Positions 3,083-58,115 of a stretch of 64,000 nt of DNA are shown here, in pieces (the first letter of the stretch is position 1; the number at the start of each line of letters is the position of its first letter). The position numbers and the translations under genes were made by a program. A model generated the notes under the pieces. That model did no database searches. It was not told where the DNA came from and worked only from the letters and a program-made list of their open reading frames with translations. This DNA comes from Calothrix sp. PCC 7716. Its GTDB lineage: Bacteria > Cyanobacteriota > Cyanobacteriia > Cyanobacteriales > Nostocaceae. The DNA lies in NCBI RefSeq assembly GCF_019977735.1, contig NZ_AP025018.1:6452580-6516579 (forward strand), read 5' to 3'.

Positions 3083-3706
3083 CTAAAATTTTCTAGCTTT
3101 TTTGTTTACCGGGTCAAACTCATACCGCTTTTGTGGGTCAGTTTCTCCATATATATTAAAAGTAACGGTCGGAGTATCACCCATAGCTTCTACACAATGA
3201 ATAGCACTACTGTCAAAACTAATAATGTCCCCAGGAAACAAAGTTAATTCTCCAGTCTGTTCAATAGGATAGTTTTGAGTGCTGAGTTCTGAGTGCTGAG
3301 TAGAATTACGTTTCCAGAAAGTATTTTTTTCCTGACCTTGTAATACAGCGACAATACCCCATGTGCCATGATTATGAATATTCGACTTAACACCCGGAGC
3401 AAAAGTAACAGTTTGAACAGTAAGAGGAAAACCCAACTCATCATATAAAAGTAAAACCTTTTCTCCATTCTCCGACACCTCTGGTACTTGACTTTGCACC
3501 CAGTAAGAATTAGTAATTAGGCGCCGAACCAGCATCCGTATTTCTGGGAGACAACTAGATTCATCTTCAACATCCTTAAGAACATCTTCCACCTCAGTCA
3601 AAAACCGATACAAACGATAATTATCTCGTAATAAATCCCACTCGCGCGGAGACTTACAAGCAGTATATTGACCATCTCCACCTACAAACCAATCACGATT
3701 TTTCAT
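3083..3706 (-). CDS. Cysteine dioxygenase-like cupin
   Basis: 207 residues from the ATG at 3706, chosen because GGGAG lies 8 bases upstream; a frame extension to 3721 lacks such a site. The cupin metal motif is visible as NIHNHGTWGIVAVLQG, and the second cupin motif as SFDSSAIHCVEAMG. Family members use a His-bound iron to oxidise cysteine or related thiols to sulfinates. Residues around 134-145 (NSTQHSELSTQN) are encoded by a GAGTGCT heptamer repeat inserted in frame between the two cupin motifs. Substrate cannot be read from sequence. It shares a strand and 20-base spacing with the downstream nitrogenase-associated gene. Confidence 0.75.
   Translation of the reverse strand: MKNRDWFVGGDGQYTACKSPREWDLLRDNYRLYRFLTEVEDVLKDVEDESSCLPEIRMLVRRLITNSYWVQSQVPEVSENGEKVLLLYDELGFPLTVQTVTFAPGVKSNIHNHGTWGIVAVLQGQEKNTFWKRNSTQHSELSTQNYPIEQTGELTLFPGDIISFDSSAIHCVEAMGDTPTVTFNIYGETDPQKRYEFDPVNKKARKF
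3277..3302. repeat. STRR-type heptamer repeat inside a coding region
   Basis: Degenerate tandem of the heptamer GAGTGCT (about 3.5 units) lying within the cupin gene without breaking its frame. The same heptamer occurs outside genes at about 11,505-11,528. Cyanobacterial short tandemly repeated repetitive (STRR) sequences have this form. Confidence 0.7.
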
Positions 3707-43924: not shown

Positions 43925-44067
43925 AAGCGCGCTCCATAGAATCAAGACTTAATCTCAATGTGCTAATTATTTATGGAAAAAAAATGAAAGCTTCATTTTA
44001 GAAAAAATATCCAAATATTGCTCGTTGGATAGCCGAACATACTGAATAATTAATCAATTCGCAATTA

Positions 44068-44421
44068 CTACCACTCAATTTGATCGTCCTCGTCCTGGAA
44101 CTCAAGACAAACCCAAGAGAAAGCGTCATCCGGATTCTTAGCTCGTGCATAAGCAAGCGAGTGGTATTGTTGGCGACATGCATCATCTACATTAATATCC
44201 ACACCAACAGCAGTAGCAGTATAGCAACGCCAATCCCAAGCTGTTTTCCCTATTAAACTTGCCCCCACCAAATTATCTTCCCCATAAGTAGTCTTGCAAT
44301 ACCTATCCATATTAATTCCACCTAGTTTTATTTCACGTGCTTGTGCTAAGTCAGGAGAAATTAATGTACCAACTATTATTAAAGCAATGGCAAGCGCTAA
44401 ATTCTGAAAACTTTTAATCAT
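44068..44421 (-). CDS. Small secreted protein, paralogue A
   Basis: 117 residues, GGAG eight bases before the ATG. Signal peptide MIKSFQNLALAIALIIVGTL with cleavage after LAQA; the mature part has paired cysteines (MDRYCKTTYG, WDWRCYTATAV, DDACRQQYHS, WVCLEF). Closely similar in signal and Cys pattern to the plus-strand gene at 46,676. Family not named. Confidence 0.6.
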   Translation of the reverse strand: MIKSFQNLALAIALIIVGTLISPDLAQAREIKLGGINMDRYCKTTYGEDNLVGASLIGKTAWDWRCYTATAVGVDINVDDACRQQYHSLAYARAKNPDDAFSWVCLEFQDEDDQIEW

Positions 44422-44527
44422 GTTTATTCACTCCTTATTTCTCGTAATGCGCGTTTTTGTTTAATATAAGGTAATAGTAAGTTTTACCTTCCTTACACTT
44501 TGGAATAAGTGCAAGCAACATTAACTT

Positions 44528-44812
44528 ATGCACTTTACGCTTGAGCGAGCGCAGGCGCCGCGAGTGAAAGTTCTACCACAGGCGCCTGTTTTGATTCAAA
44601 CAATTAACGAGCTTCGCAAGAAATACCATCAAGCTGGTGTAGGTGTAGTTCTTCTTAATCTATCAATGCTGGCAGGTTTTTATATTGGTAAATTATTTAA
44701 TTTAAGTATTCCCCAACGAATTTATATTGCCTTTTTAGCCTACTTCTTCTTTAAAGCTTTAAGGCGCCGTTCAATAGCTCGACAACTAAAAGATAGATAT
44801 AGACGGAGCTAG
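44528..44812 (+). CDS. Small membrane protein, 94 aa
   Basis: Soluble, basic N-terminal 35 residues, then a hydrophobic stretch (VGVVLLNLSMLAGFYIG) and a second (IYIAFLAYFFF), ending in a basic tail RRRSIARQLKDRYRRS. Not recognised. Upstream spacer separates it from the divergent secreted-protein gene. Confidence 0.5.
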   Translation: MHFTLERAQAPRVKVLPQAPVLIQTINELRKKYHQAGVGVVLLNLSMLAGFYIGKLFNLSIPQRIYIAFLAYFFFKALRRRSIARQLKDRYRRS

Positions 44813-45154
44813 AGGGTTGTACTGCGTCGTTCTAAAAGAGCCGCACCCAAACTATTCTTAACAGTTGTTTATTGGCACTATTCCCCGTCATCGAACAGTC
44901 TCCCCTACACAATCGATTTTTTATAGTATCAAATAACTATGCTTTATGGCGCCAACAAGTTAGAGTAGTTCAAAAAATAAATTATCCCGTAGGCGCTTGC
45001 GTCTCGCCTGTCCTAAGATATTTCATGAGCAGGCGCCGATGCCTACCCTACAATATTTATTTTGGGATATTTTTTTAATTGGAACACTCTAACTGCATAA
45101 ATCTACTGAGGTGTTCCCCATAAGTAAACAAACTGGCGCCTGAATCCTTACTAT

Positions 45155-45482
45155 ATGCATTTTTTCTCAAGTCTTAGCATAAACTATTCTTTCACAAAGC
45201 AGTTTTACTTAAAATTGCTCAGTTGCTTTGCAGTCAGTAGCTTGGTTCATAGCTACATCTATCCAGCAATCGCTCAAATTATCCCAGATACGACTTTACC
45301 TATTAATACCACGGTTAGAGTAGACAATAATACTAGTATCATCGAGGCTGGAACAAGGGTTGAAGGTAATCTTTTTCACAGCTTGAGAGAATTTTCTGTA
45401 ATTAATGGTGGCGAAGCATTCTTTAACAACCCCGACGACATTCGCAATATCATAACAAGAGTTACAGGTCAATTAATTCTGG
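45155..45482 (+). pseudogene. Fragment of a TPS-domain (filamentous haemagglutinin-type) protein
   Basis: Signal-like start (FYLKLLSCFAVSSLVHSYIY) and then the two-partner secretion domain: IIPDTTLPINTTVRVD, EGNLFHSLREFSVINGGEAF, NIITRVTGQ. Family identity stops near 45,470 where sequence of an unrelated FHA fragment begins; the frame ends at 45,529. A full adhesin would be many hundreds of residues. Confidence 0.7.
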
Positions 45483-45720
45483 TTTCATTAACTTTTGTGC
45501 CACCAACAGAGTTTAAATCTTCGAGATAGTAATTGCCATTTTGAACTACAATCCTGGCATGAAATCTGGAAATTTGAACACTATCTAGAATAATATCACT
45601 CTCGCTACTACGACCTAGCCTTATTTGGTCATTTTTAAGTGTGAATAAAGCTCCTACCGCAGATGGTCCTTTTAATATACGTAAATAGGGGAATTGAACA
45701 CGTTTGGTTGAAATTGTCAA
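45470..45720 (-). pseudogene. FHA-domain fragment
   Basis: 83 residues on the minus strand, FPYLRILKGPSAVGALFTLK, then QIRLGRSSESDIILDS, QISRFHARIVVQNGNYYLED, LNSVGGTKVNETRIN. This is most of a forkhead-associated phosphothreonine-binding domain, but the ends are abrupt: its C-terminal end meets the TPS fragment and its N-terminal end meets the polyketide-synthase fragment. Confidence 0.65.
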
Positions 45721-45960
45721 ATCTACATCGGGAATTTTAGTCGGGGGATTTTTGGCGCCATTGGTTCGGGTTTATTTGGACTAACTAAAACAATGATGTG
45801 GGAATGGGCAAATGTTTTTTGTCGAGCAATTGACCTTAGTCCTCAATTAGATGCTGATACTTCCGCACGCTGCATTATTGCTGAACTGCATGACCCAAAT
45901 CGTTATCTAACTGAAGTTGCTTATGGTAGTCATGGTCGAGTCACGTTGATTGCTAAATAA
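45721..45960 (+). pseudogene. Fragment of a polyketide-synthase ketoreductase-type region
   Basis: Open frame without its own start. It reads FGAIGSGLFGLTKTMMWEWA, NVFCRAIDLSPQLDADTSAR and IIAELHDPNRYLTEVAYG before a stop at 45,960. The GLTKT...EW.NVFCRA.DL.P.LDA...A..I..ELHDP pattern is that of PUFA/HglE-like polyketide synthases, which in heterocystous cyanobacteria make the heterocyst glycolipid chain. Only about 78 residues remain. Confidence 0.6.
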
Positions 45961-46675
45961 CTTTATAAGAGAACCCCACAGAATAATTGATCCTGCTGTG
46001 TCATGCTGAGGAACGTTAACGCAGTTTTCCCGCTTTCTTAGCATCTCAAAGTTTAATGTAAACCTAGTGGTCTGTGTCATAAGTTTTGAGATGTTGGCGC
46101 CTGCCGTTACGGTATGGTAGGGTGTGTGGCGCCACGAAAAAATTCCACTTCTTATAAAAGACTTATAGCGCCACGCACCAGATTCTCGGTGGTGCTATAA
46201 GCTCATAATTTTTCATTTTATTGAAGATTGTAATAGCTTTGACGCACCCTACCCAACATATCAAAATTAATGACACGAACTACTAGTTTTGCCGCAAATA
46301 AGCATATCCGCGAGATTCTAGCCTGCAGCAAATGCTACCCTGCGGGAAACTTCGTTTACGCATAACACTGCGTTCAGAATGACAATGGGCATTATTTTTC
46401 GTGGAGTTCTAAATGACAATCTTCGTGCATAAGTTAATCTTGCTTGCACCTATTTAAAAGTATAGGGAAGGCAAATAAGCTTTACCTTATATTCAAAAAA
46501 AACTTACAGTGCGAGAAATAAGAAGTCAACTATAGCTGTTCGGAGGCTATTGTAGTTTGAGTTAAACAAACACATCTTAAACTCAGATATCCAGCATATT
46601 TGCAATCTCTTTTTTCTCGAATATCGATCTCAAATATCTAGGTTTTGTACAAACAATCTTTTGGAGGAAATAAAC
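45961..46675. other. Intergenic with dispersed repeats
   Basis: About 715 bases with no gene. Contains repeated GTGGCGCCACG / TAGCGCCACGCACC-type palindromic sequence (about 46,125-46,190), GACGCACCCTACC near 46,240, and a degenerate GCGTTCAGAATGACA repeat near 46,371. GGAGG precedes the next ATG. Confidence 0.5.
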
Positions 46676-46993
46676 ATGAGTAAAAGTTTTCGGAATTTAG
46701 CGCTTGTCAGTGCTTTAATAATAGTTGGTACATTAATTTCTCCTGACTTAGCACAAGCAGGTGAATTAGGTGGAGTTGATATGAATGCATATTGCAAGTC
46801 TCAAGGGTATGCTCGTGCAAATTTAGTAGACCTCACAGATGCGGGATGGCGTTGCTATACTTATACTTCTTTTCCTATTTGGGATAGTATTGACATGAAT
46901 CATGTATGTAAGTGGCAATATAAAAAGGAAAATGTTTATGCAAAATCTAATTATCCGTATGACCAGAACTCTTGGGTTTGTGTTGAGAATTAA
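46676..46993 (+). CDS. Small secreted protein, paralogue B
   Basis: 105 residues; start set at 46,676 by GGAGG eight bases upstream. Signal peptide MSKSFRNLALVSALIIVGTL, cleavage after LAQA; mature part GELGGVDMNAYCKSQGYARA with later GWRCYTYTSF, MNHVCKWQYKK and WVCVEN. Same signal and four-cysteine layout as the minus-strand gene at 44,068. Gene debris lies between the two. Confidence 0.65.
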   Translation: MSKSFRNLALVSALIIVGTLISPDLAQAGELGGVDMNAYCKSQGYARANLVDLTDAGWRCYTYTSFPIWDSIDMNHVCKWQYKKENVYAKSNYPYDQNSWVCVEN

Positions 46994-47010
46994 GAGATTT
47001 AAGCATACAC

Positions 47011-47112
47011 AAGAAAATTACAAGGGGTACTGACTTCAAATTATAGTATTAAAAAAATTTGCTTCCCTGGAACGACTCGACCCTTGTTTATGCCCAATAA
47101 AACCTTGCCCAC
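47011..47112 (+). pseudogene. 3' remnant of the Cys-rich gene at 51,122
   Basis: The sequence matches the last ~100 bases of the gene at 51,122-51,628. It reads GVLTSNYSIKKI, then after a one-base frameshift KFASLERLDPCLCPIKPCPH, against GVLNSNYGIKKFASLERLDT and SYCPIKPCPH in the intact gene. Confidence 0.75.
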
Positions 47113-47640
47113 ATCATTATTCAGTATGCTTTGAATGAATGTATACTTTTTTACCTAAAATTAGACAGATGTTGTTGTAGAGACCGGATATATTCGGTCT
47201 CTACATTTGCACATTTGATAATCTTTATCTTGTAGATAGCAGCTTTTTTCCATCGAGTGGCGCCGTAAACCCATCCCTAACGCGCCGCAAACCTACACAA
47301 CACTTCTTTAGAACTTAGTATTTTTAAACTAGTGTGATAATGGCGATTTCCGCACTACTATTTTTTCCAGTCATATCAACACTTTCAGGGTTTTATAGAA
47401 AATCGACTAGTTTAAAACTCAAAGCACGCAACTTCGTAACGGGTAGGCGCCTATTAATTAGGATAGCAAAGTTTCAAGCACCAAAGCATTATAAATATAG
47501 TTTGCGTTATTACAAATAGTCGAATAAACAACGAGTATAAGTACCCCCGGCGCCTATCACAGATTGTTTGTGTGAGTATAAAACTTTAGATTTAAAACTA
47601 CTTGGGGAGCTTATAATTTCTGCATATCTGGAAATTAATT
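47113..47640. other. Intergenic before the recombinase
   Basis: About 530 bases. A GAGACC-centred inverted sequence near 47,180-47,205. A 61-codon frame at 47,334-47,519 is weak and not called. Confidence 0.4.
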
Positions 47641-48627
47641 ATGTCCAATTCAAGTATTACGGTTATACAAACAGCACAACTGGCGCCCGTCGTTGATTTT
47701 CCCCTCGACCAGGACACGGACGTTATTAAACAGTTGCTTGCTGATACTCGGTCTGAGAACACGAAGCGCGCGTATGAGAAAGACCTGAAAGATTTCTTCA
47801 AGTACATAACCGGGCGCCTGCCCAATTCAGATTTAGTATTAGAGTTTTTACAACTGGAACAATCTCACGCCGTCGCGGTAGTTCTTAAATATAAAGCGCA
47901 CCTGGTGAACGAGAAGAAATTAGCAGAAGCAACAGTGAACCGGCGCCTCAGTGCAATAAAATCTTTAGCAACAATGGGGCGAAAGCTAGGGTATTGTTCT
48001 TACACCTTGGAAGATATTAAAGGTGAGAAGGTTGAATCATACAGAGATACTACTGGAATTCCGCCAGCAGAATACGCGCGGGTTATTTCTCAGATAGACA
48101 GAGCAACATTAAAAGGTAAACGTGATTATGCGATTTTGCGGTTGCTTTGGGATAATGCTCTACGGCGCGCTGAAGTTTGTAACTTGAATGTTGGTGATTT
48201 TGATGCCCAAGCTAAAACTTTAAGGATACTGGGTAAGGGTAAAGGTACTCAAAAAGTCACCATTGATTTAAGTTTTAAAACTACTGAAGCTATTACAGAT
48301 TGGTTGATTGCTTGTGGTGTCAGTACTAAATTGAAGGCGCCTCTATTTACTGTTGTTGCTTACAACGGCAATGGTACACGTTTGAGCGGGGAAGCAATAA
48401 GGCGCCTGATTGATGAGTTGTCACAGCGCGCGGGTATTACTAAAAAGATGTCTCCTCATAGGGTGCGACATAGTTCTATTACTACTGTGTTAGATAAAAA
48501 TAACGGGAATTACCGTGCGACACAAAGGTTTAGTCGTCACAAGAAAACTGATACTGTAATTAAGTATGATGACAATAGACAGAAGTTACAAAAAGAAATG
48601 ACCGATATATTAGCGGATTTGATTTGA
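47641..48627 (+). CDS. Tyrosine recombinase (integrase), intact
   Basis: 328 residues. Residues about 30-125 are the SAM-like core-binding domain (TRSENTKRAYEKDLKDFFKY). The catalytic domain has Arg in LLWDNALRRAEVCNL near 181, Lys in ILGKGKGTQKVTI near 200, HRVRHSS near 281, His in RFSRHKKTDTV and Tyr in VIKYDD near 315. All catalytic residues are present, so it should be active. It may integrate and excise the element or resolve multimers; no attachment site was identified. Confidence 0.88.
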   Translation: MSNSSITVIQTAQLAPVVDFPLDQDTDVIKQLLADTRSENTKRAYEKDLKDFFKYITGRLPNSDLVLEFLQLEQSHAVAVVLKYKAHLVNEKKLAEATVNRRLSAIKSLATMGRKLGYCSYTLEDIKGEKVESYRDTTGIPPAEYARVISQIDRATLKGKRDYAILRLLWDNALRRAEVCNLNVGDFDAQAKTLRILGKGKGTQKVTIDLSFKTTEAITDWLIACGVSTKLKAPLFTVVAYNGNGTRLSGEAIRRLIDELSQRAGITKKMSPHRVRHSSITTVLDKNNGNYRATQRFSRHKKTDTVIKYDDNRQKLQKEMTDILADLI

Positions 48628-48658
48628 GATGGGCGCCTATAAATAAAATCCCAGATTT

Positions 48659-49408
48659 TTATAGGGTACTGCGGCGCCCAACGACAATAGGTTGATGAAG
48701 TATTCCATCCAAGCGTTGCACATCTGTAAAACCAACATCCTTAAAAAGAGACATCAGGTTATCTATAGTAATTGCGTAGTAACGAGATAAGCCAGCAGTA
48801 ATGCAAGCTGGAACACCTTCACCAACCTCACGTACAAAATACATGGCAACCTCGTAACTATTATTACTCCAATCACGAGTTTGAAACACAAAGTAGCGCT
48901 CGCTTCCGTTGTAGCGAAAACCATAAGGCCACATTTGCGGAGAACTTCTATCCTCATCCTCAAGATAGTCTCGGAGGTTAACAAAAGCCACCCCATCTTT
49001 CTTTAAACAATCGTGGAAACCTTGAAGTGCGACTCGAATATCCTCTTCTCCTGGAAGATGTGGCAGGGAGTTGTCAGCACTTAGGACGACATCAAACCCA
49101 GAACCGTGAGTTTCAAAACACTTACGCATATCTGCCACTTTGAATGTAATATTAAGTCCGCGTGTTACTGCTTCAGAGCGCGCGCGTTCAACTGCTGCCA
49201 CTGATAAATCTGATGCCGTAACATTATGACCAAATGGAGCAAGCCCTAATGCCTGCGTACCAATACCACACGAAACATCAAGAATAGATACAGGCGCCGA
49301 ACCTACGAAAGTTCTAATTAAACCGTTTAGAGCATTTCCCTGCTTTTCGATAGCTTCGTTCCAATTGGGATAAACAAGGTGATAAAGATTAGCAATATCG
49401 TTGTACAT
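48659..49408 (-). CDS. Class I SAM-dependent methyltransferase
   Basis: 249 residues. Motif I VSILDVSCGIGTQALGLA near residue 42, then VTASDLSVAAVERARSEA and a later DVVLSADNSLPHL. The style resembles glycine/sarcosine N-methyltransferase-type enzymes that use SAM on small molecules; the exact substrate is open. It lies between an intact integrase and a truncated one. Confidence 0.75.
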   Translation of the reverse strand: MYNDIANLYHLVYPNWNEAIEKQGNALNGLIRTFVGSAPVSILDVSCGIGTQALGLAPFGHNVTASDLSVAAVERARSEAVTRGLNITFKVADMRKCFETHGSGFDVVLSADNSLPHLPGEEDIRVALQGFHDCLKKDGVAFVNLRDYLEDEDRSSPQMWPYGFRYNGSERYFVFQTRDWSNNSYEVAMYFVREVGEGVPACITAGLSRYYAITIDNLMSLFKDVGFTDVQRLDGILHQPIVVGRRSTL

Positions 49409-49462
49409 AATTTATGAATTAACGCTTGTTGGGTAATAATTATCATCCATGACATTTTTTGG

Positions 49463-50284
49463 TTAATTATGCCGGAACTGCTGCGCGCAAAAATGAATAC
49501 CTGTTTTCTTCCTAATCTTCTCTACTAATTTACGCACCGTATCGTAGCTTATGCGCTCCCCAGCATTACGATTGGAGTGAGATAGAAATAATGGATTATC
49601 ACCGAGTAGTACTTCCCCTTTAGACTGGCGCCAGTTTAGGTAATTATCTAATAATTGCTGTGCCCAATCATCTAAATTGACGTATTTTCTACTGGAGTGC
49701 TTGCTTGAACGAACATGTAATCGGCGCCCATCGTAGTCTTTTATATCTAAATTGACCAACTCACCAGGACGTAATCCATGACGTAGCACAGCAGAAATCG
49801 CACTATTTCGTTCTGGGTAATTTAAAGACGCAATCGCACCTAATATAGAACTTACGCTCTCCGAAGATAGAAGATTCTTAGTTTGATTGGCTGCTGGTAA
49901 GGGAAGTTCGAGCGTGATAGTTGGGTTTGAAGCTACATAACCGTTCTTGTGCATCCAATCGAAGAAGTTCTTAATGATTCCCAATATTCTTCTAATGCTC
50001 GTGTCGCTCAATACTTTTTGCTTTACTCCAAACCTATGCAGCATCAGATATTTTTTAAATTCTTCCATATGTTCCGCATCTACGTCTGTCCATGCGGTAT
50101 TTCTCCATCTAAGAAAATAATTAAAGTAGTGACGGTAGGCTTTTTGAGTAAGCGGCGCCAATTCCTGTGCGTTTATCCATTCATAAATTCGTATTGTTCG
50201 TAAGTCTGTACAATTATTAGGCGCCATTTGAGGTGTAGATTCTTCAACTACTGGAATTATTTCAACTTCGGGTATCTTCTTCAT
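49463..50284 (-). pseudogene. Truncated tyrosine recombinase
   Basis: 273 residues. Core-binding domain (NAQELAPLTQKAYRHYFNYF) and catalytic Arg in AVLRHGLRPGELVNL near residue 173 are present, and Lys lies in RSSKHSSRKYVNL. It stops at HFCAQQFRHN, just at the second Arg box, so the following His/Trp and the catalytic Tyr are missing. The sequence past the stop does not continue the family in another frame. It is probably inactive or a dominant DNA-binding fragment. Confidence 0.75.
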
Positions 50285-50400
50285 GGCGCCTGTCCTTACT
50301 TACAATTGTCTTCTATTCCGGTTGTCATGTAAACCGGAATAAGATTATTCTAAGACAAAAATGTGTAATGCTCAGAGTTAAATCACAACGAGCAGTTTGT
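50285..50400. promoter_or_regulatory. Upstream region of the truncated integrase
   Basis: Short spacer with a GTCTTCTATTCCGGTTGTC-like stretch and a partial inverted repeat CCGGTT/AACCGG near 50,318-50,335. Confidence 0.3.
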
Positions 50401-51110
50401 CGGTTCGCGCAAAAGGCGCTAATCTTCGCACAAAAGCCGCTAATTTTTCGCACGTCATGCAATTTATTTCGCTGTAAGCTTTATACTGCAAGGAATATTG
50501 CCCAAGGGGAAATCCAAGCATGATATAAGTAAAAGCGCTCTCCAGTATCTACCACAATGCTTTTGGACTCCGTGCCAGTCAAATCCTGGAATTTGCCTCC
50601 AGAGCGCGAATTGTTCTAGAAATTAGCGTGCATGTGCGAAAAAATTAGCCAGGTTGTGCGAAAATATGTGCCTGAAACAACGTAATTGTGGTTTCGCGCA
50701 TAACTTGAAATTCTGGAAACGAACTTATAAGGGTTTCAGCCTATAGAATTCGCGCATAAAATGAAAATGACGGTTTTTTAAGGTCAAATTCGCGCGTAAA
50801 ATGAAGTGAATTCGCACATAAAATAAATTTTTTTCAAAATCGCTGCTTCCTGCTCTGCGCTTTGAATAGGTCGCGATAACTATCCTAACTCTACCGCTCA
50901 AACCCTGATTGCATCGTCTGGTCAAAATCAGAAAATTTCATTTTATGTGCTTTGACGAAAATCGATGAAAGTCTTATGAAACCGTTGTTTCACTTTATGC
51001 GCGAATTGCGTTGCCTGAAACCCTTATACATTCGTTTCCAGGATATTACTTTATGTGCGAACCGACATAATCACGTTCAATAATTAGCATCTTTTGTGCG
51101 AACCTACAAG
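50401..51110. repeat. Large imperfect inverted-repeat array of TTCGCRCA motifs
   Basis: About 13 copies of a motif TTCGCRCATAAARTGAA or its shorter form TTCGCRCAAAA: forward copies near 50,403, 50,424, 50,448, 50,693, 50,749, 50,789 and 50,810; reverse copies near 50,638, 50,656, 50,938, 50,990, 51,047 and 51,094. The middle part is a long palindrome: left arm 50,691-50,830, right arm about 50,935-51,062, sharing CTGGAAACGAA, TATAAGGGTTTCAG and AATTCGCGCATAAA. It lies between divergent genes. Confidence 0.8.
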
Positions 51111-51121
51111 TTTTAAAAAGT

Positions 51122-51628
51122 ATGGCGCCTGAAAAACGTAAGATACCGAATAAGTGCAAACAATGTGCCATGCTCAGTGCTGATCAGGCGAAAGAAATAC
51201 ACGGCGCCAGTGGCGATAATTGCTGGGACCCTTCGGTGTGTTACAGTCGTAGGTCTCATGCACGACACAAAGACAGGCGAAATCAAGCGCGCGCAGTGAG
51301 ACGTTCTTCTGTTGTAGCCGAGGAAATATCTATCGACATCGAGGAATACTCTGATATTTACTTCGCGACTCTAATTGTTTACAGGGCGCCAGGATATGAA
51401 ACTCCCATACACGCAATTGGTGCCGAAGTATGGAAGGGTCAAGAAAAGCGCGCGGTTGTAACACCTATACATTGTGTTGGGATGGTTAAAAGTCAGGTTT
51501 TAGGATACACGAGGAAATTATTGGGGGTCTTGAATTCAAATTACGGCATCAAAAAATTCGCTTCTCTTGAACGACTGGACACAAGCTATTGCCCAATTAA
51601 ACCTTGTCCTCATAATCCTCAAAACTAA
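51122..51628 (+). CDS. Cys-rich (zinc-finger-like) hypothetical protein
   Basis: 168 residues. The N-terminus has CKQCAML (residues 12-18), then DNCWDPSVCYSRRSHARH, a likely zinc site followed by a basic Arg-rich patch. The C-terminus ends SYCPIKPCPH. Looks DNA-binding. It starts 12 bases after the inverted-repeat array and could regulate from it. A broken copy of its 3' end lies at 47,011-47,112. Confidence 0.55.
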   Translation: MAPEKRKIPNKCKQCAMLSADQAKEIHGASGDNCWDPSVCYSRRSHARHKDRRNQARAVRRSSVVAEEISIDIEEYSDIYFATLIVYRAPGYETPIHAIGAEVWKGQEKRAVVTPIHCVGMVKSQVLGYTRKLLGVLNSNYGIKKFASLERLDTSYCPIKPCPHNPQN

Positions 51629-51731
51629 ATATTTTAGAAGTTTATTCGCTAAAAATAGTCTGTAATGCTTGCTATATAAAGCTTTGAGTTCTAGAAGTAT
51701 ATTTCTAGTATGCCAGGATGAACTATTTATA

Positions 51732-51860
51732 ATGAACGAAAAATTTGTGCAGTTAGAAGTATGGGATTTACGAGTAGGAAGCACTCGCAGGCGCCTGATA
51801 CAAAGGTCATCAGAAATATTTGAGTTTAAAATTCTACGTTATATAAGTAATTATAAGTAA
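51732..51860 (+). pseudogene. 5' remnant duplicated from the gene at 51,974
   Basis: Starts MNEKFVQLEVWDLRVGSTRR then RLIQRSSEIFEFKIL. The first ~13 residues equal those of the gene at 51,974 (MNEKFIQLEIWDL); the rest is unrelated, so it is a truncated duplicate just upstream. Confidence 0.65.
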
Positions 51861-51973
51861 TCGAATCTTTAAAACAATTCTTGCCAAAAAATTAGCTCAA
51901 ATGACTCCTATACAAGTATTGAAGCTTTAAAACTAAAACAAAAAACGTCTAGTATCGCATAACAAAAAATATA

Positions 51974-52690
51974 ATGAACGAAAAATTTATACAGTTAGAG
52001 ATTTGGGATTTGTTAGAGTCAGCACTTGCGGCGCCTATGAATGTTGACTGGCGCCTGTTATGGAATGGTTTAGATGTATCATTATTAGATTTAGATACAA
52101 CCGAACAGCTACAAGTTGCAGCAGATGCATTAGTACAAATGGTTGAAGTATTCCATGCTCGCAGTGTTGAAACTTTTGAAGAAATTGAATCTGTTATAGG
52201 TGATGATGGCCCAGTGATGGGTGATGCTGACTTTGCTCCATTTGTTCGGCAAAGTATGGGCATTGATTTCGATGAGTTTATAGAACCACTGGTAAGTCCG
52301 CCTCGTAAACAATATGAATGGGCGCCTGAAATAGAAAATCATTCAATAGTACAAATAGTCGAGAAGGAAGTTTTACTTGAAACACTCCCTATAGAAGAGA
52401 GCGAGGATACTATTTGGGAGTCGGTTTTAGATATAGCGCACAGTGAGAATGTGGAAGCTTGGGTTAGGGCAATTACTATATATATAGATAATGTGGCGCC
52501 GGGACAGGTAGTTACTGTATCAGGTTTGATGCGCGCGTTACGGGAATTGGCGCCTGTTGAGGTTTGGTTGGGTTTACTGCTTGGGTCATTTGGTATGCGT
52601 TCTAACTGTCAGTTTAACTTTGATGACTATAATATATTCTGTGAACAATTTTACGCATTGGATATTTTAGTTACTTATTCCGAGTCCTAA
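51974..52690 (+). CDS. Hypothetical acidic protein, 238 aa
   Basis: Not recognised. Highly acidic (FEEIESVIGDDGPVMGDADF) with a C-terminal helical part (APGQVVTVSGLMRALRELAP, VEVWLGLLLGSFGM). No Cys cluster or membrane segment. The gene appears to be recombination-prone: a 5' copy lies just upstream (51,732) and a 3' remnant at 53,195-53,299. Confidence 0.5.
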   Translation: MNEKFIQLEIWDLLESALAAPMNVDWRLLWNGLDVSLLDLDTTEQLQVAADALVQMVEVFHARSVETFEEIESVIGDDGPVMGDADFAPFVRQSMGIDFDEFIEPLVSPPRKQYEWAPEIENHSIVQIVEKEVLLETLPIEESEDTIWESVLDIAHSENVEAWVRAITIYIDNVAPGQVVTVSGLMRALRELAPVEVWLGLLLGSFGMRSNCQFNFDDYNIFCEQFYALDILVTYSES

Positions 52691-52779
52691 AATAAGTGGT
52701 GCCTAAGAATTTTAGCAATAATAATATTTTCCTGTTGTCGTTCATAATGGTTTCAAATTACTAATTAGTAATAAGATAT

Positions 52780-53175
52780 ATGGCAAATCAAGCTTTAAAG
52801 ATATCAGTAAAAATGGCAGTGGTTATGGGTGTATTTTTACCGCTTGCTGAAACTGTAAGAAGGTCAAATCAACTATTAGATTTAACTCGCTTTTTCAATT
52901 GGTTTGATGATTATATTCTTGGTGCTGTTCTCTTAATTGCTGTTTACTTGGTAAAGAAAAATGTAAATAATGCAATTGCATACTTAATTGCTGCTTGGGG
53001 ATTCGTATCAGGCGCCCTTTTTCTAAGTTTTTTAGGACAATTTAATTTCTACAGAACAAATACTGTTGACCCAGGAATCTTTTCAACAACCTTCGTAGCA
53101 GTAGCGAAAGGATTAATCTTGGGATATATGTTAATAGGTCTTTACATGGCTGTAAAATCTAATTCCTACAAATAA
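52780..53175 (+). CDS. Small integral membrane protein
   Basis: 131 residues, three to four membrane segments (DYILGAVLLIAVYLV; AIAYLIAAWGFVSGALFLSF; KGLILGYMLIGLYMAV). No motif recognised. Plausible plasmid-borne gene with a clear ATG. Confidence 0.5.
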   Translation: MANQALKISVKMAVVMGVFLPLAETVRRSNQLLDLTRFFNWFDDYILGAVLLIAVYLVKKNVNNAIAYLIAAWGFVSGALFLSFLGQFNFYRTNTVDPGIFSTTFVAVAKGLILGYMLIGLYMAVKSNSYK

Positions 53176-53194
53176 ACTGATAACTGTCGGTCGA

Positions 53195-53299
53195 ATAGAA
53201 GTAGTTAACATGGCATCCGGAGAAGTCATTACTGTGTTAGATTTAATACAAGCTTCTTCAAGATTGGCGCACTTTGTTAATTTCTCCCTCGGCGCCTAA
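53195..53299 (+). pseudogene. 3' remnant of the gene at 51,974
   Basis: Open frame without a start: IEVVNMASGEVITVLDLIQA then SSRLAHFVNFSLGA and a stop. It aligns with IYIDNVAPGQVVTVSGLMRA of the gene at 51,974 and what follows. Confidence 0.6.
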
Positions 53300-53399
53300 C
53301 ACGGAGTTTTTTATATGTTTCCACTTTAGCTTTAATTTATCCTGGTTTGTACTTAAAATATCGTAATAATTACAAAGATGGATATATACATGTAATAAT

Positions 53400-54266
53400 A
53401 TGCTTTTTGGAAGGAAAATTATCTGGCTAACAGCTTGCTTAACTTTTGGAATTAATATTTTTAGTTTACCTGCATCCGCCAAGGATACAGCAACACCTTC
53501 GCAAAAAGAAGTTAGGGAAATGCTTAAAAATATTTGTGGACAAAATAATATCCTGGTGCAAGAAAACATGTCAGGAAAAAATAGACTTGGATGTAGCGCG
53601 CGCGAAGCTAAAAAACGTATTTCTTTATCGATTACTGATGAAGATATATTTACTGTAGAAGGAGTTATCTACGGTAGCTTTAGTAAACCAGGTGTTAGAG
53701 AAGCTTTAGTTGATATAGAAGCTACAAGTGAACCACGCAGTTCTTTTTATGGTGGTAGTATGTTACTGCGTCGTTCGGGTCAAGGTTGGTCGTTTGTATG
53801 GTATAAATCAGGATTAAGATTAAATAATTGCTTTAAGATACCATTTAAAAACAACCAAAGTAATGTTCTTTGTAAATATGAGTATTATAGTGCTAACTCA
53901 CAATCTGAATGGCTAACTCTAGTGGATTTTGAAAAGACAAAAGATGAAAATACAACACTACTATTAGTGAGTAATAATCTTGGAAATTGTAAACCTCCAT
54001 TCCGAGATATAAAAATAACTAAGTTTTCAGGACGAGATATAAATAGCGATGGTACAACAGATATAATCGTCAATGTGAGAGCCGGAGTCAGTAATGCTAA
54101 AAAAATACCTGAATCTCAATGTGATGAAGTAAATGGTAAATTACCCAATTCTAAAATGTATCGGCTAGTATTCTTATATAATGGTAAGAATTTTCAGCCT
54201 ACACCACAAACAGCAAAACAAATTAAGTATTTTGATTATTTAATGAAAACTTATATTACTAAATAA
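53400..54266 (+). CDS. Secreted hypothetical protein, 288 aa
   Basis: Signal peptide FGRKIIWLTACLTFGINIFS, cleavage after LPASA. The mature protein is mixed alpha/beta with a central VRAGVSNAKKIPES and four or more cysteines (NICGQ, LGCSA, NCFKI, NCKPP, QCDEV). Not recognised. Cargo-like gene in the plasmid-type region. Confidence 0.5.
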   Translation: MLFGRKIIWLTACLTFGINIFSLPASAKDTATPSQKEVREMLKNICGQNNILVQENMSGKNRLGCSAREAKKRISLSITDEDIFTVEGVIYGSFSKPGVREALVDIEATSEPRSSFYGGSMLLRRSGQGWSFVWYKSGLRLNNCFKIPFKNNQSNVLCKYEYYSANSQSEWLTLVDFEKTKDENTTLLLVSNNLGNCKPPFRDIKITKFSGRDINSDGTTDIIVNVRAGVSNAKKIPESQCDEVNGKLPNSKMYRLVFLYNGKNFQPTPQTAKQIKYFDYLMKTYITK

Positions 54267-54430
54267 TCATAGGGAAAATGATAATTGGGATTAATTAAAT
54301 ATTGGCGCCCAACGGGAGAGCTAGTTTATATAATGTACTACTTAAGGACTAGTAATCTTTAATTCTTAGGGTGCATTTAAGAGTATTGAGCGCACCCTAA
54401 TTAATTCAAGTACTTAAAAGAAAATAATTG

Positions 54431-55117
54431 TTAGTTATTACTGGCGCCGTTTTGTTTAGTAGCAGCGTTAACATTTGTATAAAATTCCTCACGACTAATT
54501 TTACCTTGAAGTACTTTATTGAAGGAATTATTTACAGTTTTTTGAGCATTTGTGTTAAACTTTGTCACATTACCGTCGTTGGAATTAACTAATCCAATTA
54601 TTTCATCATCGTCATCGGGTAAAGTTCTCAAAAACTTCTTAAAGAAATCAGAATTTTGTTTAGCGTCCCAAGCTTGAATTGGAAATTCTCTTATTTGACT
54701 CAGTATTTGTTGAGCTACGTTACGTGCATCAACTCCTGAATTCCACACACTCAAACTGTATTTTCTTAATCCAGCTGGAGGACACGCCATAACCAAATAC
54801 TTTCCTGTCATGCGAGATTTTTCAACCCAAGTGTAAGAAAATCCTTCTTCTACAGGAATATGTTCGCTCACGATACAAGCAAAATCACCATCAAAAACTT
54901 GAAAATTTAGATGTGGATTTGTTATTGCTAAATCTCTTACTACCTTTCTAAGTATGGGAAATCTATTCTGAGTAGTGGAGAAGACAGGTATCAAATCTTT
55001 ATCCAACTGTTGATTTTTCTTAACAGTAGAACGCGAATTAATAAGACTAATAATTTGAGCCTTTAGACTTGAATAAATTTTATCTTCCTGAAAGTGTTCA
55101 TTAAAAAATTTAGACAT
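54431..55117 (-). CDS. Hypothetical protein, 228 aa
   Basis: Not recognised. Soluble; starts SKFFNEHFQEDKIYSSLKAQ, a beta-rich centre (HLNFQVFDGDFACIVSEHIP; YTWVEKSRMTGKYLVMACPP) and an Asn/Lys-rich helical tail. A clear ATG and moderate length favour a real gene. Stands alone. Confidence 0.5.
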   Translation of the reverse strand: MSKFFNEHFQEDKIYSSLKAQIISLINSRSTVKKNQQLDKDLIPVFSTTQNRFPILRKVVRDLAITNPHLNFQVFDGDFACIVSEHIPVEEGFSYTWVEKSRMTGKYLVMACPPAGLRKYSLSVWNSGVDARNVAQQILSQIREFPIQAWDAKQNSDFFKKFLRTLPDDDDEIIGLVNSNDGNVTKFNTNAQKTVNNSFNKVLQGKISREEFYTNVNAATKQNGASNN

Positions 55118-55357
55118 AATTTTTCTAATTACTTTACACAGCGATTATAGATATTACTTGTAAGCGCAATAATTACTTATTCGCTCCTAGCTAAAGGCAA
55201 ATTATACATTACTTTTAGCACCTGAAAATTTTATTAATAATTGTTCATATTACGGTATTAGGCGCCCAAAAAGAGAGCCAATTTATCTACGACTCTGGTA
55301 ATGTGGGACGGGAACCAAGGAGCAACACTGGAATTACTATAGACAATATTAATGTAC

Positions 55358-55765
55358 TTATGTAGTAAGCTTGGCGCCATGCATATTCTCAATCACTACA
55401 TTGTAAGGAATTATCGAAATCCACGTTAACACAGTTCCACAGCAGTAAGCGTTGATTATATACTGGTTTTGAGGACTTTTCCAAAAAGATAAATCAATTC
55501 CTATTTGACCATCTTGTATAACGTGAAGCTGGCGCCCATCTTTACCTTCTAACCCTAACATTACGCCGTCTTTAATCGCATCAAGGCAACAATAAAATGC
55601 AAGGGTAAAAAGTTGATTTGTAATTTCCCATGCTTTGCGCTGTTTTTGGATAAAGTCTAACACGTCGTGAACAATCTCTTTTTGTAAGGTCAGATTTATT
55701 TTTCCAACAACGTTTTCAATCAGGCGCCTTTGAATTTCAGCAGCAGGGATAATTGAGTATGGCAA
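55358..55765 (-). CDS. Hypothetical protein, 135 aa, TTG start
   Basis: Begins with TTG (MPYSIIPAAEIQRRLIENVV read). Mostly helical in the first 80 residues, then a beta part (GVMLGLEGKDGRQLHVIQDG; IDLSFWKSPQNQYI). Not recognised. It lies 35 bases after the gene ending at 55,801 on the same strand and is likely its operon partner. Confidence 0.5.
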   Translation of the reverse strand: MPYSIIPAAEIQRRLIENVVGKINLTLQKEIVHDVLDFIQKQRKAWEITNQLFTLAFYCCLDAIKDGVMLGLEGKDGRQLHVIQDGQIGIDLSFWKSPQNQYIINAYCCGTVLTWISIIPYNVVIENMHGAKLTT

Positions 55766-55800
55766 ATTTTGGTTAGGGTGGTGAATAATAATTTGCTGCC

Positions 55801-56286
55801 CTAAGTTAGGGCGCCGAATATTTCATCAACTTGAGGATGCCAGTTATCTTGATAATGTCGGAAACTTTCTGCAAGTTGGACACCGATTTGACGATGGATG
55901 GGTGCAACGTTTTCAAGTATATGAGTGATTTGAAAATCGTTGGATTTTTCAAACCAGTGCCGAACTATTCTCCAAAACTCTCTACGTATAAAGCGATTAC
56001 GGGATTCTGCTAATTTGCTTATCTGAGCAGAAAGTTTGGCGCCTTTAAATTGAGCAACACGTTTTTCACACGTTGATGTAAAAGATTTATTACGTGAATT
56101 TTGGTGTCTGAAATGTGCTTGCCTAGTACGAATCGCATCACCTTTATTAGCTGCTACCCAATCAACAAATTCTTTACAACACAAACATTTTACGATTAAG
56201 TCATTTAAATTGTTAAAATCTACGTCGCTAGCTTCAATAATTTCCTCGAACTGCGAGTGTCTAAAACATCGTAGTGCTTTATCCAT
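55801..56286 (-). CDS. Hypothetical helical protein, 161 aa
   Basis: Start set at the ATG of MDKALRCFRHSQFEEIIEAS; a GTG seven codons earlier (56,307) is possible. Helical throughout, with a basic middle (RTRQAHFRHQNSRNKSFTST) and a C-terminus ending DEIFGALT. Cysteines in KCLCCKEFVDW might bind metal. Not recognised. First of a two-gene set with the gene at 55,358. Confidence 0.5.
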   Translation of the reverse strand: MDKALRCFRHSQFEEIIEASDVDFNNLNDLIVKCLCCKEFVDWVAANKGDAIRTRQAHFRHQNSRNKSFTSTCEKRVAQFKGAKLSAQISKLAESRNRFIRREFWRIVRHWFEKSNDFQITHILENVAPIHRQIGVQLAESFRHYQDNWHPQVDEIFGALT

Positions 56287-56574
56287 AAATTCGCGTGTCA
56301 GGTACACAAGTCAATTATACTACAAATAACTTTAATTGTCCGTAGATACGTAATTATTCTTGAATAAATAGTATGCTGTATTAATAATCGGCACCATAAT
56401 TGATTAATATATTTTGATAACCACAACGAAGCTTTCTAACTTAAAAACATGCGCCTATTTAAAATCGTAGTTCTTGCTTAATTAAAGTATATTTTTTATC
56501 ACTGTGTAGATGCGTTCTTAGGGTGCGCTTACGAGCATTAACTGCACCCTAATAAATCGCGAAGTTAAGAATTG

Positions 56575-57525
56575 TTAAGTTTTCCGGCGCCGACTAAAGT
56601 CAGGGCAAGGAAGGTTCGATAGTCCCGAAGGATGAACTGCACATAAGAAGCCACTATTAAACGCACAGCCGCTTGCACAACATAAGCAAGAATAAACTTG
56701 TTTCTCTATTATCTTTTTATCAACTTCTTCGTGGTCACGAAGAAAAGCAACTAAATTTGATTCGTTACCTCTATTGTTCCTACGAGTATATTGCATTGCC
56801 CGCCATTGTTCGGCGCCAGCTTGGATTGCCTCGCTGTTTTGCTCGTAGATTTCTACTTTACGCGCGCGCGTAATCAACCAACGAGCATATTCCTCTGCGT
56901 TAATAGCTAGAAAATTTTCAACTCTCTGACTTGAAAACCATTGCATCGGCGCCGCCTTTCTAGAATGTGGATTTGTTACATATCTATCTGGTTCACCAAT
57001 GCGCTTAATCCAGCTTTCACTGAGTAAATAATTTTGTTTCAATGAGGACTTAGTTATAAACTTATCTTGAATGGCGCCTTCTTCGGTGTCAGCGTCGCTA
57101 TATAAATCTATCCATATATATTTATCTTTCATATCGTCCCAGATTCTGGCAACCGCAGTTGGTTTTATTCCATCTTGGGGCTTTTTGTTAAGTTTCTTTA
57201 ATTCCCCAATTGTTTTTAAATTCCGGCGCCGACGTTCGTCCCAGGTAATTGCTTCAGGTAAACTTGGGTCAATAAGTTCAGTGTCTTCAAGTCTATATAA
57301 ATTGTGGCAACTTACACTAAGTACTGCTGCAAGAGAGGCGCCTTCTTTTAATTTTAAATTTAATGCTGCTAATTCTGACTCTAATATTAGATTATTGGGG
57401 ACTTGACCATACTCGTAACGATGGACGCCTGGACAATTGGTGGATGGTCGGCTTTTCCAGATGACGTTACATACAGTGCAGTGGTAGCGTTTATCTTCTG
57501 TTTTAGTTAGGGAGTGCTTTGACAT
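56575..57525 (-). CDS. Hypothetical protein with two Cys clusters, 316 aa
   Basis: N-terminal zinc-like site (YHCTVCNVIWKSRPSTNCPG) and a C-terminal Cys cluster (VYSCLCCASGCAFNSGFLCA, VHPSGLSNLPCPDF). The middle is helical, with ITWDERRRRNLKTIGELKKL. The C-terminal cluster (CxxC...C...HPxG...CPDF) resembles a small cyanobacterial zinc domain of unknown role. Probably DNA- or RNA-binding. Stands alone on the minus strand. Confidence 0.5.
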   Translation of the reverse strand: MSKHSLTKTEDKRYHCTVCNVIWKSRPSTNCPGVHRYEYGQVPNNLILESELAALNLKLKEGASLAAVLSVSCHNLYRLEDTELIDPSLPEAITWDERRRRNLKTIGELKKLNKKPQDGIKPTAVARIWDDMKDKYIWIDLYSDADTEEGAIQDKFITKSSLKQNYLLSESWIKRIGEPDRYVTNPHSRKAAPMQWFSSQRVENFLAINAEEYARWLITRARKVEIYEQNSEAIQAGAEQWRAMQYTRRNNRGNESNLVAFLRDHEEVDKKIIEKQVYSCLCCASGCAFNSGFLCAVHPSGLSNLPCPDFSRRRKT

Positions 57526-58115
57526 ATTTAAATTATTCGGCGCCGTGCGTACTTTGAATAATTATCTGCATTATAAAATAATATTAAAATCAGTACATTC
57601 TTATTTTCTTTTATGTAATTAGTACTTTCGTTTTTATGCTTTGAAAGTAGATATTGAGGGAAGATGAAGGGAGTTCAAGGGTTAATAGAGGGAAATATAA
57701 GTCTTGATTATATATATTTTTATTTACATCCCCTTGCAAATCCCTTAATTTGTTTATTTACTATATTGGCTGTAAATAACGGAAATGCTTACGACACAAG
57801 CTATTCTAGAATAAATATTTTATAATCACCGTAATTTATGTTGCGATACAGCATTTTATTCATCGGCGCCTGTTTTTATTTTTCAGTCTTTATATTGTGA
57901 ACACACTACACAATTGTTTAATCGAAGCGGCTGTAAAATAATTAATTCAATCTAATATTTCTGATTAAATAGACTGCAATAATATGCATACAAGCATTGA
58001 TAGTTACAACTTATCAGCTTTAAAGGTATCGCTCGTTCATGTAAACACAGTTTTTAGGTATTGGTAGCGAGTAATGGCTAGCTTAAAACCTACGTGGAAT
58101 TACCTTTACACTGTA
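57526..58115. other. AT-rich spacer
   Basis: About 590 bases without a gene or strong repeat; leads into the tandem array at 58,116. Confidence 0.4.

Follow-up and report, generated by a model that had tools for sequence, protein, structure and literature searches.

Genes and repeats at the locus

The window (the whole stretch of 64,000 nucleotides that was analysed) carries an array of TTCGCRCA motifs at 50401..51110, with two tyrosine recombinase genes on its left and two genes of a recombinase-linked module on its right. INT328 (47641..48627, forward strand; PF00589, 3.5e-22) is a complete tyrosine recombinase. INT273 (49463..50284, reverse strand; PF00589, 1.5e-11) is truncated, as an earlier note on this DNA had it: its match covers profile positions 3-134 and so ends at position 134 of 172, and a full-length relative on contig C2 of the same genome is 43% identical. 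At another locus, L047, relatives of INT328 and INT273 are about 20 bp apart, and INT273 has the same end point there as in the window. The segment between the two genes in the window (48628-49465) holds an ORF (48659-49408) that is methyltransferase-like by eye.

The Cys-rich gene that had been seen right after the array encodes CYS168 (51122..51628, forward strand), a Cys/His-rich protein whose ORF starts at 51122, 13 bases past the end of the outer element described below. Its partner in the same module, P238 (51974..52690, forward strand), follows. A C-terminal fragment of a second CYS168 copy lies upstream of INT328 (46994-47117). The CYS168 family has conserved C/H columns that form an invariant Cys/His pattern; it has 0 matches in Pfam, NCBIfam and PHROG, the P238 family likewise belongs to no family in these collections, and the AlphaFold model of CYS168 (pLDDT 84.8) has no PDB match at E <= 0.001. 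With the family searches empty and the model unmatched, the array as a CYS168 operator was set aside. Relatives of CYS168 and P238 are found at L006, L040, L045, L047, L082-L101 and L270-L287. Across the 20 CYS loci L082-L101, a relative of the P238 family (P238/P226) lies near the CYS gene in 17, and a tyrosine recombinase is present in 15 of the 20 stretches fetched.

GGCGCC occurs 160 times in the window (1-64000), against about three copies expected from base composition, and GCGATCGC, the core of the cyanobacterial HIP1 repeat, occurs 0 times. GGCGCC is perhaps an alternative highly iterated palindrome.

Structure of the motif array

About 13 TTCGCRCA motifs had been described, running forward in the left half and mostly in reverse in the right half, around an imperfect central palindrome. 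The number holds: 13 copies with at most one mismatch lie in 711 bp (0.69 expected at the rate of the window remainder), of which 10, between 50404 and 51102, are exact. The whole 64-kb window has 11 exact copies (3.3 expected), and its densest other 711-bp stretch has five near-exact ones (at most one mismatch). The palindrome is also present, its near-palindromic arms (50687-50766 and 50988-51067) being 80% complementary. The orientations, however, follow another order, with three forward motifs (50404, 50425, 50447), three reverse (50603, 50633, 50655), four forward (50693, 50749, 50789, 50811), two reverse (50998, 51054) and a last reverse one (51095). Thus, the order +++ --- ++++ -- - is that of an inverted set inside a second inverted set, not of one simple inverted array. 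A tRNA search of the array found none, and Rfam gave 0 matches at gathering score across 44000-58000, with one match below it that was judged to be chance; a tRNA or other RNA reading of the array was dropped on these grounds.

The array very probably consists of two non-autonomous, gene-less Tn7-like transposons, one nested in the other. The outer element (50398..51108; 711 bp with the inner element counted; TGTCGGTTCG...CGAACCTACA) starts with TGTCGG, ends with CCTACA and is flanked by two copies of AGTT as target duplication (50394..50397 and 51109..51112); it has relatives at L006, L045, L046, L047, L048 and L049. The inner element (50687..51067; 381 bp; TGTGGTTTCG...CGAACCGACA) starts with TGTGG, ends with CCGACA and is flanked by TAAT (50683..50686 and 51068..51071). 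Each end of both elements has two to four TTCGCRCA-type copies, inverted between ends. The ends of Tn7 are TGT...ACA, and both window elements have such termini together with inverted site arrays at both ends.

The integrase-side end of the outer element (50404..50454, forward strand) has three tandem TnsB-type sites spaced 21-22 bp, and is the counterpart of the end next to tnsA in the complete L050 element. Its far end comprises the three inner sites of 50603..50662 and the terminal site 51095..51102, all on the reverse strand. In the inner element, the left end with four sites (50693..50818, forward strand) is the tnsA side by comparison with L045, where that side of an inner-type element is seen, and the right end with two sites (50998..51061, reverse strand) is the tniQ side by comparison with L141.

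The segment 50687-51067 is an insertion, because outer-type copies elsewhere run through without it. In the genome from which the window comes, a 300-bp outer copy lacking this segment was found on contig C2 (384,612 bases), which is probably a plasmid, and the outer junction is uninterrupted at five further loci (L045/L159, L046/L029, L047/L033, L048/L036, and the L050 element end in L183). The inner element almost certainly landed inside the outer one after the outer insertion. L049 (G028) has an inner-type end at the equivalent point of an outer-type copy whose outer flanks are different. An unoccupied site of the outer element in this gene neighbourhood was not found among the loci retrieved.

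The insertion point of the inner element is a near-palindrome, AACGTAATYACGTT (50679-50686 with 51068-51077), which is conserved in the outer-type far ends of L006, L045-L048 and L183, including that of the complete element in L050. The centre of the outer element (50466-50600, compared with L006 5378-5679) is almost identical in the window and C2 copies, with differing terminal repeats; it looks as though subtypes had swapped ends.

Complete relatives and target duplications

Complete inner-type elements were found at L134 (922-5850) and L135 (2852-7781); each is about 4.93 kb long and is filled by TnsA, TnsB, TnsC and TniQ. A complete outer-type element, L050 7731-13193, encodes TnsA-TnsB-TnsC-TniQ and is flanked by AAAT. 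The Pfam families TnsA-like N, Mu-transpos_C, TniB and TniQ are found in complete elements of both types, with rve below the Pfam cut-off in both TnsB proteins. The complete elements with related ends have the gene set of Tn7-like transposons; tns genes are absent from the window copies. Because related ends bound TnsA-TnsB-TnsC-TniQ elements, the TTCGCRCA motifs are most likely TnsB-binding sites, candidates by their position and array structure. TnsB would bind these motifs, and TnsA, TnsB, TnsC and TniQ supplied in trans by complete elements would mobilise the gene-less forms. Contig C3 of the same genome has an outer-related TnsA/TnsB remnant (L094/L173).

The TnsAB-TnsC pair of Tolypothrix PCC 7601 (L041) was dropped as the owner of the inner ends, because L134 and L135 have related ends around separate TnsA and TnsB, and because beside its TnsAB sits only a left-truncated miniature copy. 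L051 (G142) was dropped as a relative, being a weak DNA match in a seemingly repetitive coding stretch. A different Tn7-like element (TnsAB fusion, TnsC and TniQ; TTTAGGCATAAGTTGTCC-type repeats) occupies 3898-9170 of L047, in the same integrase-CYS gap.

A replication origin, a centromere-like site, integrase arm sites and an autoregulated operator had been offered as functions of the array. None of the four is a good fit, because the motifs sit at the termini of two transposons, each flanked by a target duplication, because related ends surround TnsA/B/C/TniQ operons, and because the inner element has uninterrupted junctions elsewhere. An iteron-type origin, a partition site or an operator of the CYS gene 13 bp downstream is thus a highly improbable identity for the array. 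The repeats do stand immediately upstream of a gene, and the outer element ends 13-16 bp before the CYS start in the window, L045 and L047, so that it may well carry the CYS gene promoter. However, in L006 the element and the CYS gene are about 2 kb apart with a 212-aa ORF between them, no CYS gene was found in 19 kb of L048, and the nesting, the duplications and the uninterrupted junctions require transposition.

Duplications were assessed in 35 end pairs from one pattern, many of them mixed pairings, with 1134 pairs from different loci as control. An exact 4-bp repeat flush with TGT...ACA is present in 10/35 pairs, versus 8/1134 control pairs. Repeats of 5 bp are seen in two of the 35 (L103 898-1218 and L187) and of 3 bp in another two, and no repeat of 2 to 8 bp in 21, with L134 and L135 among them, many of the 35 being mixed pairings. 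L006 has no target duplication. Two further 4-bp duplications were found, ATGC in L284 and ATGT in L193, and the unoccupied sequence for these insertions is present in four other plasmids (L272, L274, L276 and L281). Parts of PMC11406308 give a 5-bp target duplication as characteristic of Tn7 and all its relatives. Where a duplication is visible here, it is usually 4 bp, and this sets the family apart from the 5-bp rule as stated there.

Association with recombinase genes

All of the gene-less outer-type copies found (7/7: window, L006 and L045-L049) have relatives of INT273 or CYS168, or of both, in their neighbourhood. The earlier note had held the position beside the integrase to be significant, and the landing site does seem to be on the integrase side. 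This proximity, together with the array adjoining a recombinase gene, would also be expected of arm-type or accessory sites bound by INT273 or INT328 in plasmid integration or resolution. That explanation has very little chance of being right, as TGT...ACA termini and a target duplication enclose each of the two window arrays, inner-type copies also occupy other positions and, elsewhere, lie where no recombinase is listed, TnsABC-TniQ operons have related ends around them, and the module occurs without the array at L082, L084, L090 and L098.

To return to the transposons, a search with a TnsB alignment recovered 237 relatives from named genome contigs, and the 80 best were retained. Within these 80, a recombinase is present in the fetched stretch at 9/12 cyanobacterial loci versus 2/68 others (Fisher p 5e-8), a contrast that is biased because the recombinase profile was built from 12 cyanobacterial sequences. 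One of the nine, L193, has a weak partial match only, and two of the three cyanobacterial misses, L194 and L204, have less than 1 kb of upstream sequence. Eight other cyanobacterial TnsB loci (L175-L182) yielded one weak recombinase match, and 13 further loci scanned gave a match in L047 only, the same integrase locus as the window's relative. The tnsA side is toward the recombinase in 11 of 14 loci (L193 left out), and the reverse is seen in L135/L191, L185 and L208. On large contigs of G009 and G024, at least five copies of the inner type are far from any listed recombinase.

Spacing from dif-like cores and the T2 site

Many flanks contain a conserved non-coding sequence, T2, with the core ATAA-N7-TTAT. 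A second core type, ATTCCAGATAA-N6-TTAT, is found upstream of INTfull-type genes (L006, L048, L050). These ATAA-N6/7-TTAT cores resemble dif. When 27 flanks were scanned for the dif-like pattern, a core was present in 14, and in 10 of these the distance from core to element end is 63, 63, 63, 64, 66, 66, 66, 68, 69 or 70 bp. The exceptions are L039 (48 bp), L149 (41 bp), the first end of L195 (40 bp) and L135 (28 bp, with the other end proximal). Of 107 distinct ends, each read with a 150-bp flank, only 15 have ATAA-N6/7-TTAT, 11 of them at 62-70 bp, versus about 0.1 expected for random positions in the same loci (0.00105 each; p about 5e-19), the 62-70 bp range having been chosen after seeing these data. 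These counts speak strongly for a fixed spacing of ends from the dif-like core where one is present, but most ends have no such core and some lie at other distances.

At the window's own site there is no core of the ATAA...TTAT form. A perfect inverted repeat, TATTCCGGTT-8-AACCGGAATA (10-8-10; 50314..50341), is the putative crossover site of the neighbouring recombinase; 0/60 shuffles were as good, and 62 bp lie between the end of its inner right arm (50332-50335) and the outer element. Inverted repeats in 23 flanks include eight that beat all 60 shuffles (window, L171, L172, L190, L084, L040, L039 and L050), the one in L050 being in a different place from the palindrome beside its element. 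The strong repeats of L171, L172 and L190 are closer to the element, at 11, 34 and 19 bp, respectively. Repeats that failed to beat all 60 shuffles were obtained for L006, L048, L135, L186, L187, L195, L196 and L198 and for 7/8 empty loci.

A PLSDB search with T2 by itself located it at 35 places in 34 records of Nostocales plasmids, several of which come from a single strain, and T2 therefore occurs about once per plasmid. Its neighbourhood was sampled in 18 of the 34 records (five already covered through their ends and 11 others were left out), T2 lying near 3512-3561 of fetched records such as L270-L287. A recombinase-CYS-P226 trio is present within 3.5 kb of T2 in 7/18, on one and the same side each time, with a split recombinase frame in L282. 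A Tn7-like end or tns operon lies within 150 bp on the other side of T2 in 4/18 (L275, L284, L285 and L287), L285 and L287 being near-identical sequences from one strain. The operon of L275 is of the TnsAB type, and a TnsAB-type operon is also found near T2 in L185. Being dif-like, present in single copy and linked to a tyrosine recombinase, T2 looks like a plasmid resolution site.

Proposed target choice

We propose, with a probability of roughly 0.55, that a cargo-less cyanobacterial clade of Tn7-like transposons (TnsA-TnsB-TnsC-small TniQ, mainly 4-bp duplications, gene-less derivatives) hunts plasmid tyrosine-recombinase crossover sites. Its members would read the bound recombinase and insert 62-70 bp away, tnsA end first, and so would follow the system by which large plasmids of Nostocales resolve their dimers. 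TniQ and TnsC would choose the insertion site, and the plasmid recombinase bound at its crossover core may be their signal, as the resolvase at res is for Tn5053/Tn402. Such a signal is suggested because the spacing is constant while the core sequence differs between loci, because outer-type ends occur at window, INTfull-type and T2-type sites, and because of the Tn5053/Tn402 precedent (parts of PMC7765201).

The same transposons might instead lack active targeting, with copies persisting at harmless plasmid sites beside recombinase genes, or spreading with the plasmid module. Some loci (window, L047) have related flanks, two of the four matches in the sample of 18 plasmids (L285, L287) are near-identical and from one strain, and most ends have no dif-like core (core in 15/107), all of which would suit this explanation. 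However, different end families lie at the same 62-70 bp from cores that differ in sequence, the duplications differ (AGTT, CAAC, AAAT, ATGC, ATGT), which argues for separate insertions, and a spacing 9 bp wide is not predicted by survival alone. An absence of targeting is considered unlikely.

Comparison with known systems

Tn5053/Tn402 are described in parts of PMC7765201 and PMC11406308 as 'res-site hunters', which insert at res aided by the resolvase of the target, and whose end closest to the resolvase gene is always the same. By that description, they resemble the family reported here in having plasmid recombination sites as targets, a preferred orientation and a TniQ-type selector. However, the present family has TnsA, mostly 4-bp rather than 5-bp duplications, and a near-constant spacing outside the core. 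It also lacks their make-up of TniA-B-Q without TnsA, plus a resolvase and res of their own; a profile search found no recombinase matches inside the L134, L135 and L050 elements. The target recombinase of Tn5053/Tn402 is a serine enzyme, whereas the neighbouring recombinase here is a tyrosine enzyme.

Tn7 and the cyanobacterial CASTs share with this family TGT...ACA ends, arrayed transposase sites and TnsB/TnsC/TniQ, and their oriented insertion at a set distance from a recognised site may have a parallel in it. The family differs in its 4-bp duplications and in its apparent target, a plasmid recombination site. L134 and L135 are filled by TnsABC-TniQ, so that a TnsD-sized selector, TnsE or the cas genes of a CAST would not fit into them. 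TnsF of Tn6022 is transposon-encoded and targets comM (part of PMC10293859). As far as that account goes, the likeness is a small TniQ tied to tyrosine-recombinase biology for targeting; the recombinase here, however, is outside the element, whereas TnsF is inside.

Tn5469 of Fremyella diplosiphon is a cyanobacterial Tn7-like element without cargo genes and with one TniQ, listed as showing apparently untargeted transposition only (parts of PMC11406308). L134 and L135 (4.93 kb, TnsABC-TniQ only) match it as compared by this description alone, the difference being the many loci here at a fixed distance from recombinase-type cores. Thus, the arrays, the TGT...ACA ends and TnsABC-TniQ are already known as Tn7-like traits, and the cargo-less single-TniQ layout resembles Tn5469 so far as the latter is described there. 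Titles, abstract openings and parts of PMC10293859, PMC11406308, PMC8649781 and PMC7765201 mention no such targeting or 4-bp duplications in Tn7 relatives; the account of Tn7-like elements in cyanobacteria by Hsieh and Peters 2022, or the Tn5469 paper, could overlap.

If the proposal is true, plasmid tyrosine-recombinase sites would be an added target type for Tn7-like transposons, and the 5-bp duplication rule for all Tn7 relatives would be broken. The family would then include a compact element of about 5 kb whose small TniQ finds its target without CRISPR or a transposon-encoded selector. For the hosts, the conserved dif-like site and the three-gene module (recombinase, CYS and P238) may resolve large cyanobacterial plasmids.
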